In this document: one piece after another, positions 23,165 to 26,113 of the stretch
Layout: each line of letters starts with the position of its first letter
How positions within the stretch are numbered: position 1 is the stretch's first letter
NCBI GenBank assembly: GCA_014238155.1
Contig: JABABQ010000042.1
Span: forward strand, 1 to 64,000
Origin: Rhizobiaceae bacterium
GTDB taxonomy: Bacteria; Pseudomonadota; Alphaproteobacteria; Rhizobiales; Rhizobiaceae
Direction: 5' to 3'
Length of the DNA: 64,000 bases
Made by a program: the position numbers and the translations under genes
The notes under the pieces: generated by a model
Told to the model about the DNA's origin: nothing
The model's database searches: none
The model's input: only the letters and a program-made list of their open reading frames with translations

Positions 23165-23193
23165 TTGTCAGACCGGCAATAAAACCGCATAAT
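23165..23193 (+). promoter_or_regulatory. Strong promoter of the short transcription unit
   Basis: TTGTCA (23165-23170), a 17-nt spacer, then CATAAT (23188-23193): five of six matches to the sigma70 consensus in each box with ideal spacing. Transcription would start near 23199-23201, giving an RNA of about 210 nt up to the terminator at 23412. Confidence 0.6.
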
Positions 23194-23230
23194 TTGATTC
23201 GTGTTCAACGCAATGAAAGGAGGTGATCCA

Positions 23231-23302
23231 ATGTCGAGTAGTTTCACTAGTTCGGTAGGGTCTTTGTTTAATGGTGTATTTGGAGAGCAATCTCTCCGGT
23301 GA
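23231..23302 (+). CDS. 23-codon small reading frame behind an extreme ribosome-binding site
   Basis: Encodes a Ser/Gly/Phe-rich 23-residue peptide beginning MSSSFTSSVGSLF and ending GEQSLR. Its ribosome site at 23216-23229 (AAAGGAGGTGATCC) is an exact 14-nt complement of the 16S rRNA 3' end, with AGGAGG 7 nt before the ATG. It lies in a unit with a good promoter and a strong terminator, so it is probably expressed. A hairpin GGAGAG-CAAT-CTCTCC (23282-23297) covers its last codons. About 75 nt of non-coding RNA follow, including CCCTCC at 23357-23362 that could pair back with the ribosome site. I do not recognise the peptide; the RNA itself may be the functional product. Confidence 0.55.
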   Translation: MSSSFTSSVGSLFNGVFGEQSLR

Positions 23303-23380
23303 ACCAGCGAACCGGACTGTTGGAATCACGCGTTGACGATCTGTCAGCCTGATGGACCCTCCGGACAAAGAAATTGCGAT

Positions 23381-23412
23381 GGGCCGCTTCTTCGAAGCGG
23401 CCCTTTTCTTTT
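23381..23412 (+). terminator. Intrinsic terminator of the short transcription unit
   Basis: A perfect 10-bp stem GGGCCGCTTC / GAAGCGGCCC with loop TTC (23381-23403), followed by TTTTCTTTT. Among the strongest terminators in the window. Confidence 0.92.
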
Positions 23413-23427
23413 GACGTTATAAACAAA

Positions 23428-23634
23428 CTAGAAATCTGAGGTAATTCCCTTGTTTTCCCAGTCGCCATAACGAGCAGGATCCGGGCCCTTGCGTCCGTTG
23501 ATTTCAGGCTTTTCGGCCAATTTCTTTTCCTGCTCCTGCTGAGCGGCCCGACGGGCCCGCGCTTCTTTCAATGCTTGTTCGGCAATCTTTGGATCGGGCC
23601 TTTTAGCAGTTTCTTTCACCAGCTTCTCCGTCAT
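23428..23634 (-). CDS. SDHAF4-like succinate dehydrogenase assembly factor (DUF1674)
   Basis: A 68-residue protein. The first 40 residues are charged and helical (EQALKEARARRAAQQEQEKK). The C-terminus has the family hallmark INGRKGPDPARYGDWENKG, then ITSDF. Mitochondrial SDHAF4 binds flavinylated SdhA and promotes succinate dehydrogenase assembly; the bacterial proteins are presumed to do the same. I start it at the ATG at 23634 after GGTTGACT-rich sequence, as 18 further residues upstream are not conserved. It is divergent from htpX (83 bp) and its stop is 15 bp from the terminator of the short unit. Confidence 0.88.
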   Translation of the reverse strand: MTEKLVKETAKRPDPKIAEQALKEARARRAAQQEQEKKLAEKPEINGRKGPDPARYGDWENKGITSDF

Positions 23635-23717
23635 GTTATCCACGGTTGACTCGCTGTCGCGGCAACCCCATCTGACATGAGCGCGCAATTAAACGCAATA
23701 AACTGGAGATTCCATAA

Positions 23718-24749
23718 ATGAATGTGGTCAAAACAACCATATTGCTGACGGCCATGACCATGTTGTTTATGTTGGTTGGATTTCTTCTGGCTGGCCAGAC
23801 GGGCATGATGATTGCCCTGGTTGTTGCAGCTGCATTGAACCTGTTTTCATGGTGGAATTCGGGCAACATGGTGCTGCGCATGCACAATGCTCAGGAAGTC
23901 ACCCATGATTCAGCACCTCAATTGGTATCGATGGTGGAACAATTGGCGAAAAATGCCGATTTGCCCATGCCTCGTGTCTATGTGCTGCAGACGGATCAAC
24001 CCAATGCCTTTGCCACCGGACGCAGCCCGGACCACGCCGCAGTTGCGGCAAGCACCGGATTATTGGATCGGTTGACGGAGGAAGAAGTTGCGGCGGTCAT
24101 GGCACATGAACTGGCTCACATAAAAAATCGCGATACGCTGACAATGACGATCACTGCCACATTGGCTGGTGCCATCGGCATGCTGGCCAATTTCGCCTTC
24201 TTCTTCCGCGGTGATCGAAACAATCCGCTGGGATTTATCGGAGTGTTGGCGACAATGTTTCTAGCCCCGATGGCTGCAGGAATAGTGCAAATGGCCATCA
24301 GCAGGACACGAGAGTATGAAGCAGACCGCGATGGCGCGGTAATTTGCGGCAATCCGTTGTGGCTTGCTTCTGCGTTAGAAAAGATAGAGCGTCATGCCCG
24401 CGGCATTTTTAACGAGCCGGCGGAAAGATCGCAGTCAACTGCGCATCTATTTATCATCAACCCACTGAACGGGCGATCAATGGACAACCTTTTTTCCACA
24501 CATCCAGATACGCAAAACAGAATTGCAGCCCTGCATCAGCTCGCAGAAGATTGGGCACACCCGTCACCCAGCGAGTCTTCAGTGCCCCAACAGCCTGAAC
24601 CGAGACATTCGCCGCTGCCAAGCGAGCCGGAACGCGAAATATTTGGACGTCATGCTGGTCAATTAAGGGACAAAAACACCACGGTTGGTCCTTGGGACAG
24701 CGCCGAAAACAGCCCCGCGGGCAATCCGAAAAAGGGTCCCTGGGAATGA
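23718..24749 (+). CDS. htpX: Membrane zinc metalloprotease HtpX
   Basis: An inner-membrane M48 protease involved in membrane-protein quality control. It is 343 residues. Two N-terminal membrane segments (about 5-24 and 27-43) are followed by the catalytic [12 protein letters not shown] (HExxH, about residue 135), two more hydrophobic segments (about 148-165 and 178-196) and the third zinc ligand in [13 protein letters not shown]. The last 65 residues form a Pro/Ser/Glu-rich cytosolic tail, longer than in E. coli. It overlaps rsmB as ATGA. Confidence 0.96.
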
Positions 24750-26113
24750 GCAAGCCGGGTTTGGCAACCCGAATTGCCGCAGCAATTGTATTAACCCGTG
24801 TTATAGATGACCAACGCTCTCTTGACGGTCTGATAGATACACGACACGGCCCCTCACAATATCGTGCACTCAGCGATGCTGACAAATCTCTGGCGCGGGC
24901 AATTGTCACTGTATCGCTGCGGCGCCGCGGCGAAATTGAGCTCGCGCTCAATAAGGTGCTGGATCGCAAGCCTCCTAAAAATGCCCGACAATTGATTCAC
25001 ACATTGCATGTGGCAGCGGCCCAGATACTGTTTCTTGATGTCCCCGACAGTGCTGCGGTTGATCTCGCCGTGGCCGCTCTAAGCAATGATAAAAGATCCA
25101 CTCGGTTTGCCGGGTTGGCCAATGCTGTTTTGCGCCGCATGTCCCGTGAAAAGTCTGAAATCTTTGGCGACAAGACCGACAGCGACATAGCGCTTCTCAA
25201 CATGTCACCCTGGCTGGCCAAAAGGGTTCGAAAGGATTATGGCCGAGAACGCATGACGGCTATTGCACGTCAGCACATGTTGGAACCGGTAATTGATCTT
25301 ACCGTTCGGTCCGATCCAAAAAAATGGGCGCAAGAATTGGGGGGACTTCGTCTGTTCGGCAATTCGGTTCGTGTTCGGCGCGAAGGTAAAATCGAAGCCT
25401 GGCCGGGGTTTGACGAAGGTGCCTGGTGGGTTCAGGACGCCGCCGCTAGCTTACCGGTTCATCTGTTTGGTGAGGTTGATGGCAAAACTGCGTTGGATCT
25501 TTGCGCAGCCCCGGGTGGAAAAACAGCGCAACTTGCTGCTGGTGGTGCGCAGGTCACAGCGTTGGAAGCTTCGCAGCCCCGTCTTGAACGTCTGAACACC
25601 AATCTGCAACGGCTGCAACTGAAAGCGACCTGTATTCAGGCCGACATGATGGCATGGCAGCCTGATCACCTGTTTGATCTTGTGCTGCTCGATGCTCCCT
25701 GCTCATCGACCGGAACGATCAGAAGACACCCTGACGTTCAATGGAACAAATCGCCAGACGTCATAGACGACTTGGCAAAATTGCAGCGTGAGATGATTGA
25801 GCAAGCAGCCCAATTCGTGAAACCTGGTGGGACATTGGTTTTTTCAAACTGTTCGTTGGATCGGGCTGAAGGCGAAAGTGTGGTTGCAGATATATTGGCC
25901 ACCAACACCGAGCTTCAATCAAAGCCGATTAATCCAGCTGAATGTTTCGACCTGTCGGAAATCATCAATCGTCAAGGCACGGTGCGCACCCTGCCATGTC
26001 ATCTGCAGTTCCCAACCTCCAGGGACGACGAGAACATCGAACCGGTCGATCAATCGATGACAGGACTGGACGGATTTTTCTGTGCTCGCTTGACCCGCTC
26101 GGTTCAAAATTGA
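24746..26113 (+). CDS. rsmB: 16S rRNA (cytosine967-C5)-methyltransferase RsmB
   Basis: Methylates C967 of 16S rRNA. It is 455 residues. Residues 1-135 are a NusB-like RNA-binding domain ([21 protein letters not shown]). The SAM domain follows with [15 protein letters not shown] (motif I, about 250), [15 protein letters not shown] (motif IV with one catalytic Cys, about 318) and [14 protein letters not shown] (motif VI with the second Cys, about 367). The ATG at 24746 overlaps the htpX stop, which settles the start. A heparinase-like gene follows 100 bp on, as in relatives. Confidence 0.95.

Follow-up and report, generated by a model that had tools for sequence, protein, structure and literature searches.

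Results

Organization of the unit

The window, a stretch of 64,000 nucleotides from a Rhizobiaceae genome, carries at 23165-23412 of the forward strand a stand-alone unit that consists of a promoter, an extended Shine-Dalgarno (SD) sequence, a 23-codon ORF, a folded body, and a terminator, with all parts in place as the original prediction had described them. The promoter (23165-23193) comprises the -35 element TTGTCA (23165-23170), a 17-nt spacer, and the -10 element CATAAT (23188-23193), and transcription would start near 23200, judging from the -10 position. A short 5' leader read from the sequence (23200-23214, ending in TTCAACGCAAT) precedes the SD sequence GAAAGGAGGTGATCCA (23215-23230), and the ORF MSSSFTSSVGSLFNGVFGEQSLR follows (23231-23302), with its ATG at 23231 and its TGA stop at 23300-23302, as had been claimed. 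In the same-genus alignment, TTCAAC of the leader is mostly retained.

Helix P1, found both in the fold and in the covariance model R1 described below and tested in relatives, pairs GTAGTTTC in codons 3 to 5 (23238-23245) with GAAATTGC (23370-23377), directly before the terminator. The minimum-energy fold continues P1 with a predicted helix P2, whose 5' strand GTTCGG-T-AGGGTCT (23250-23263) lies in codons 7 to 11 of the ORF and whose 3' strand GGACCCT-CCGGAC (23354-23366) includes CCCTCC at 23357-23362. The hairpin GGAGAG-CAAT-CTCTCC at the ORF end (23282-23297), which is supported by the fold, by R1, and by covariation in relatives, aligns with GGAG-CAGC-CTCC of relatives; both this hairpin and the CCCTCC lie where they had been placed. 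An intrinsic terminator (23381-23412) with a 10-pair stem (23381-23403) and the T-rich tail TTTTCTTTT closes the unit. Outside it, an SDHAF4-like gene (DUF1674/SDHAF4; name from the original prediction) lies on the reverse strand at 23428-23688 and does face the unit. A weak match to Rfam c4-a1b1 near the end of htpX (24731-24775; 21.9 bits, threshold 46.7) is probably due to chance.

The promoter had been called strong. It scores 10/12, and it is weak evidence when taken alone because two such sites occur in 1.5 kb where 1.4 are expected from shuffles. The promoter-like pair is nevertheless mostly retained among the same-genus relatives in the alignment, and TTG-N3-(16-18)-NANNNT was found in 115 of 159 upstream stretches of the RNA family introduced below, compared with 8 to 30 in 20 shuffles; the -10 element of the family mostly ends 36 to 37 nt upstream of the start codon. 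The scan was for a loose sigma-70-like promoter. Some relatives carry a CCCCAT-like -10 element, for which a sigma-32 promoter was considered but is not claimed.

The SD sequence GAAAGGAGGTGATCCA is the exact complement of TGGATCACCTCCTTTC, the 3' end of 16S rRNA, so that the full match to the 16S tail is 16 nt rather than the 14 nt first reported. The 16S 3' end (...GGCTGGATCACCTCCTTTCTAAGG) is taken from a second genome of the window's genus (G006, locus L224); the window's own assembly holds no second exact copy of the 13-mer expected from the opposite strand of 16S, and presumably the 16S gene is missing from that assembly. With up to three mismatches, AAAGGAGGTGATCCAATG has one site in the window, the one described here, with no mismatches, compared with a mean of 0.09 in 100 shuffles. 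In the whole genome, AAAGGAGGTGATC with up to one mismatch has two sites and is exact only here; the second site is at chance level, since the reversed control also gave two.

The 13 core letters AAAGGAGGTGATC are nearly invariant: among 80 mismatch-bearing matches in the class we counted only 26 changes, in a search that allowed two mismatches anywhere and so leaves more diverged members outside the count. Nineteen of the 26 replace A by G (positions 1, 3, and 11), and every one of them still allows G.U pairing with a 16S U, while the two letters before the start vary freely (19/80 and 50/80). The start codon was NTG, with A, G, or T as its first letter, in all 80.

Family members and their reach

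The unit belongs to a family that occurs across the Alphaproteobacteria, usually as one copy per genome, and also in a few genomes from a second class. The exact 18-mer of SD and start codon occurred once each in 20 of 61 genomes (the window's own and 60 relatives; none in the reversed control), and the 20-mer with up to two mismatches in 40 of the 61 (control 0), of which the loci L031 and L046, at 11.6 bits each with R1, are probably not members. The same relaxed pattern was found in 114 of 389 class genomes, with one control match. A scan of named genomes gave at least 118 stretches; nearly all of the matches listed were alphaproteobacterial records from several orders, and a few of those listed were labeled Gammaproteobacteria, SAR92, or Cellvibrionales. 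Two loci with such labels, L122 and L148, are full members, and two more, L099 and L131, match R1 poorly (27.8-29.6 bits). Removal of 17 of 166 pattern matches as duplicates over the first 120 nt left 149 loci.

Because the pattern-found loci had been chosen by their SD sequence, we built the covariance model R1 (185 positions) from 23 members, with the window's genus excluded. R1 recovered the window at full length (positions 1-185 of 185, 91.6 bits, E 4.4e-29), and the window shows the layout of the family: an extended SD, an NTG start, a short ORF, P1 reaching to the base of the terminator, and the terminator. For comparison, an SD match alone, as in the 16S antisense (L224, L225), scores 13.0 to 16.4 bits. 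Among 26 chosen genomes of the window's taxonomic family, 22 gave one strong match (E 5.6e-20 or better), and four gave no match (G007, which is 61% complete, G015, G029, and G030). Of the 21 R1-positive genomes of that family that were searched both ways, 15 carry an element that the strict pattern did not detect; the member in the Sinorhizobium meliloti lineage was missed because this lineage has an inserted A, and R1 found it.

At E 1e-6 or better, R1 matched 53 of 193 class genomes. Across 199 genomes of the phylum it gave 48 matches, 47 within the class and one outside it (G823); several of the weakest matches in these two scans cover little beyond the SD. A pattern search gave matches in 5 of 280 genomes of the class of G823, that genome included (L275-L279), against one control match. 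All five loci have a short ORF and a hairpin with a T-run; four scored 36.8 to 79.9 bits with R1 and the fifth only 22.9. Two of these five carry TAAGGAGG in place of AAAGGAGG. Four Rhodobacterales members scored 54 to 68 bits. Bradyrhizobium-type loci were assigned to the family on their layout, because two of three such members (L073, L079) match R1 over the SD only. Taken together, the family is well supported, and so is the fold described below.

Two sets of loci stood apart. Three Azospirillum loci (L092, L120, L132) have the identical 20-mer of SD and start before an ORF of 57 to 59 residues; R1 found essentially the SD alone in L092, and these loci were left out of the short-ORF members. 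Genome G069 has two copies with different peptides (L271, L272), one with a clear P1 and terminator and the other without an obvious terminator in the stretch shown.

The family reaches a known Rfam entry. Against RF01867 (CC2171, an sRNA of Caulobacter) the window scored 28.9 bits (E 0.0015), below the gathering threshold of 75, in a match that spans positions 1-159 of the 159-position model with its elements in the same order. When 17 loci were scanned with Rfam, five of the eight VSH-type loci gave an above-threshold CC2171 match where the element lies (L123, L058, L087, L157, and L149; 76.0-91.2 bits); three of the same type (L003, L106, L119) and all scanned MSS-, Rhodobacterales-, and Bradyrhizobium-type loci fell below it. 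The relatives that pass mostly belong to other orders, and R1 in turn finds the five passing loci at 37.0 to 53.1 bits. The window shares with CC2171 the GAAAGGAGGUGAUCCA-NUGUC stretch in the corresponding position, a helix that joins early codons to the region preceding the terminator, and a similar length; it differs in lying under the threshold, and Rfam files CC2171 under sRNA genes, in an entry that, as consulted, mentions no ORF.

We found no published account of the family as a whole among the accessible papers searched. In the accessible text of two papers, one CC2171 match is reported in Mesorhizobium (PMC5596092), and CC2171 appears in a table (PMC11701678). For the BjsR sRNAs of Bradyrhizobium, no link to the family was established from the accessible text of their report (PMC5082802). 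In Pelagibacterium luteolum (L093:4869-5280), an FMN riboswitch begins about 80 nt after the end of the element.

Conserved folding of the RNA

The 210-nt RNA of the window has a predicted folding energy of -77.6 kcal/mol, better than all 200 shuffles (-61.1 +/- 4.4; z -3.7). In the family, P1 pairs early codons (3 to 8) with the segment directly before the terminator. The P1 duplex averaged -16.7 kcal/mol, compared with -10.2 when partners were swapped between members, and the true partner was better in 131 of 138 loci (11 of the 149 have no clear terminator and were left out). Swaps within clades were beaten in 55 of 60 MSS and 39 of 45 VSH members, but only in 23 of 38 Rhodobacterales-type and 6 of 11 Bradyrhizobium-type loci.

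Of 18 pairs tested in the MSS alignment, 13 show changes in both partners, a count that was reached in 0 of 500 shuffles (which ignore relatedness), and slid versions of the pairing never exceeded 8. The both-side changes fall in P1 (4/8), the hairpin at the ORF end (4/4), and the terminator (5/6), and 85% of the P1 cells in this alignment pair. P2, as predicted in the window, has bases that are largely conserved in the genus alignment.

Evolution of the reading frame and its peptide

The stop codons of the ORF are kept while their letters change. In all 37 Rhodobacterales-type loci examined, a stop occupies codon 19 (TAG 19, TGA 9, TAA 9), which is never TGG, which the variable letters could also spell; the 37 are the 38 pattern-selected loci minus L034, which is not of this type, and L155, whose first letters differ, was not selected. 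Bradyrhizobium-type loci have a stop at codon 15 in 11 of 11, in all three spellings. The peptides are 14 to about 30 residues long in the family, and their sequences differ between clades.

Values of pN/pS in three groups were 0.87, 1.41, and 0.87, and Sinorhizobium-type members gave 0.75. For the window's genus we obtained 0.61, compared with 1.01 and 0.85 in the other frames, and this was the only group in which the real frame fell clearly below both others; it leaves room for a weakly selected peptide there. MSS-clade members mostly keep E/G/R/K-Q-P/S near the end of the peptide. The motif GGAGCAGCC of this clade is kept at the nucleotide level, yet L004, L108, and L150 have it in a different reading frame. 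The original prediction had made conservation of the ORF and the paired bases its test; start, stop, and helices are kept, but the amino acids largely are not. From these sequences, the ORF appears to be maintained as an ORF while the evolution of its peptide is nearly neutral.

One member has very probably been detected as a protein. In S. meliloti, SEP1 is described as a small protein that is conserved in Rhizobiaceae and has 23 amino acids and a pI of 4.18; among 54 high-confidence nonannotated small ORFs, its ORF is the most efficiently translated, and it was detected by Ribo-seq, by one peptide spectrum, and by a positive Western blot of a tagged form (PMC10117765). Among the genomes searched, we located the element in the two nearest to the pSymB stretch of S. 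meliloti (G679 and G761; 95% and 93% identity), where it encodes MSNEISDLVMDMGEVKESRQPSA (L228, L230), which starts with ATG, has 23 residues, and has a computed pI of 4.18. On length and pI in these two genomes, SEP1 is very probably the S. meliloti member of the family; its peptide sequence is unlike that of the window. The available text of the SEP1 report presents a small protein conserved in Rhizobiaceae and does not mention its SD, the RNA fold, or a wider family (PMC10117765). In the fusions used for the blot, another promoter was followed by just 15 nt of upstream sequence (PMC10117765), and for this reason the blot does not speak to the native RNA. The match argues strongly that the family RNA is translated.

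These data bear on the plainest reading, that the unit is a small-protein gene whose peptide is the product, with the strong SD serving abundance and the helices tuning translation or stability. The detection of SEP1 by three methods (PMC10117765) and the pN/pS of 0.61 in the window's genus fit such a gene. It accounts poorly for near-neutral peptides in four other groups, for clade-specific sequences of such varied length, and for a conserved RNA motif that is read in different frames, and we consider it unlikely.

Possible pairing of the SD sequence with its own RNA

It had been proposed that the CCCTCC at 23357-23362 could pair with the SD and give a closed state. In the predicted fold this CCCTCC belongs to the 3' strand of P2 and pairs with ORF codons 7 to 11; the two pairings are alternatives, since both use CCCTCC, and the predicted fold of the window favors P2. 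CCTCC is retained in 9 of 10 aligned same-genus sequences, with CCCATCC in L041, and an eleventh sequence of the genus (L247) has CCTTCC. The predicted openness of the window's SD is 0.61, compared with 0.39 with shuffled tails, and it exceeds the shuffled value in 9 of 11 same-genus members; over all 159 members it is 0.39 against 0.41 and higher in 82, so there is no overall effect. The closed state is thus not favored in the window's genus, but one of a similar kind emerged in the Rhizobium/Sinorhizobium-like lineage.

The SD of that lineage has an extra A (AAGGAAGGTG) that its own 16S lacks (L225), and a CCTTCCTT-like stretch with the matching extra letter lies at or just after the stop codon. 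The altered SD fits its own RNA better than the standard SD would in 16 of 16 inserted-A members (28 of 80 in shuffles), with a mean difference of -3.96 kcal/mol compared with +0.56 in shuffles (L242 and L024 are not in this group). Among the other 143 members, the altered SD gave the better fit in only 34 (shuffles, 273 of 715). All 16 inserted-A SDs are also predicted to be less open than they would be with shuffled tails (openness 0.19 compared with 0.44). That the SD and its downstream complement changed together, and that a closed state exists in this lineage, is therefore well supported by comparison of the sequences, although the change may represent only one or two evolutionary events. 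We had also considered pairing between the SD and its mimic as a universal closed state and rejected it: in the MSS clade, the local hairpin of GGAGCAGCC covaries, but of the 9 pairs that it would form with the SD, only 1 showed changes in both partners. The closed state is kept for the inserted-A lineage only.

Two further readings meet this evidence. The first is a ribosome trap, in which the match to the 16S tail holds the 30S subunit, P1 behind the start slows elongation, and subunits are titrated. The 16-nt match in the window, a core that hardly varies and whose changes mostly keep G.U pairs, and a P1 that begins at codon 3 fit such a trap. A trap would not need the stop codon, which is kept; the top translation efficiency of SEP1 among the 54 new small ORFs (PMC10117765) is unlike stalled initiation; and the inserted A of the Sinorhizobium type weakened the match to 16S while keeping the fit to its own complement. 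We regard a trap as distinctly improbable.

In the second, the RNA is a base-pairing sRNA with an incidental ORF that acts on the ribosome sites of mRNAs through CCCTCC- or CACCTCC-like stretches. CC2171 is filed as an sRNA, and stretches complementary to the member's own SD exceed shuffles on average, with mean z of -1.2 to -1.9 by clade in 137 members (ORFs of more than 30 codons left out of the SD-complement tests). An incidental ORF fits poorly with start and stop codons that are conserved while their letters change, and the Sinorhizobium-type stretch tracks its own altered SD even though the 16S tail is unchanged. We give this reading little credence.

Genomic neighbors

SDHAF4 and HtpX relatives adjoin the element in 13 each of the 149 unique loci, nearly all of them in the window's taxonomic family, and two downstream neighbors were named DUF1674 in the Pfam scan. 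No class-wide partner gene emerged from Pfam scans of 110 downstream and 96 upstream neighbors. A conserved neighborhood as the key to function was accordingly rejected, since SDHAF4 and HtpX are nearly confined to that family and no class-wide partner was found.

Rhodobacterales-type loci have an order of their own (for example, L057:1369-2642). Of 38 such loci, 34 have a PF02592 (Vut_1) transporter gene directly before the RNA, and 31 have a same-strand gene with an RF-1 domain (ArfB-like) after it; in 27 of the 38, the start of that gene is no more than about 320 nt from the SD; the order of transporter gene, RNA, and RF-1-domain gene was found only in this type. (The transporter query VUT2 proved to be a spurious ORF, and its matches in L058 and L118 were not used.) We take the RF-1-domain neighbor to be ArfB, a ribosome-rescue hydrolase, and the transporter presumably carries queuosine precursors. 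A tie to ribosome rescue, which is absent from the window, is suggestive only.

Such an arrangement would suit a cis-acting leader, in which translation of the ORF controls terminator read-through into the downstream gene, and the same-strand RF-1-domain genes of the Rhodobacterales type are the evidence for it. In the window, the next gene is convergent, and there is no same-strand next gene for read-through to control. Across 137 members, a crude ORF caller (at least 90 codons), which misses some genes, placed the downstream gene on the RNA's own strand in 48 and on the other strand in 72 and called no gene in 17, and an unsystematic look noticed no antiterminator overlapping the terminator arm. 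We judge a cis leader to be very improbable.

Discussion

The unit is the window's single copy of what we call the SEP1/CC2171 family, and most likely it is a small mRNA of about 200 nt that folds and stands by itself. The original prediction had offered three readings, a small protein, a ribosome-capturing RNA, and a translation-sensing regulator; the unit common to all three is real and conserved, and the match to SEP1 makes its translation very probable. We hypothesize, with a probability of about 0.5, that the RNA is a ribosome-gated switch in which the supply of initiating ribosomes determines which of two folds forms, with the 3' half, freed or hidden, as the output.

In such a switch, the promoter would give an RNA with a short leader, and an SD able to pair with the whole single-stranded 16S tail would load the 30S subunit at the NTG. 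The short ORF (about 14-30 codons) would be translated and then stopped, as the SEP1 match strongly suggests. Since the 5' strands of P1 and P2 in the window are codons 3 to 11, a ribosome on the ORF would have to open both helices and so free the 3' half, whereas the untranslated RNA would fold shut; both steps are read from the anatomy of the RNA. In the Rhizobium-like genera, the complement just behind the stop codon could also cover the SD, as the co-change there indicates. The freed or hidden 3' half might act by base pairing in trans, which is a guess. Selection would then act on initiating, translating, and stopping, together with the RNA fold, and leave the peptide largely free. That start, stop, and fold are kept but not the peptide fits a switch driven by ribosome loading. 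Against the switch, we count the pN/pS of 0.61 in the genus, the E/G/R/K-Q-P/S ends in the MSS clade, the weak within-clade P1 in two groups, the lack of an effect on SD openness over 159 members, and the small number of inserted-A events.

A further step, which we put forward only tentatively and regard as doubtful, is that the RNA gauges the capacity for translation start: it would pair with the 16S tail and spend a throw-away ORF, and its fold would report the ribosome supply. In the Rhodobacterales type, this report may reach the neighboring ribosome-rescue gene.

Two orphan entries, the sRNA family from Caulobacter and, very probably, the small protein from Sinorhizobium, come together in one RNA family that many Alphaproteobacteria carry. 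This family appears to be a natural case in which translation itself, rather than the peptide, is selected, with near-maximal SD pairing, and it makes an old question testable in laboratory strains: what role extreme SDs have in cells, and whether an RNA can sense ribosome supply.

Two known alphaproteobacterial systems resemble the unit in part. The attenuator-derived dual-function RNA trpL/rnTrpL of S. meliloti is likewise a small RNA with a short translated ORF, but trpL is leaderless and tied to a downstream biosynthesis gene, according to the available text (PMC10117765), while the unit in the window has an extreme SD and no adjoining same-strand gene. The Bartonella sRNA BbsR14, one of the alphaproteobacterial sRNAs with anti-SD loops, shares a 16S-tail-like sequence in a small RNA; as described in the accessible text of its report, BbsR14 presents the anti-SD in two stem-loops (PMC7717549), in contrast to the 16S-pairing SD and probably translated ORF described here. 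As a separate observation, one locus (L227:1500-1800) carries downstream of its ORF a literal copy of part of the 16S tail, TGGATCACCTCC, which can pair either with its own SD or with the adjoining GGTGATCC.
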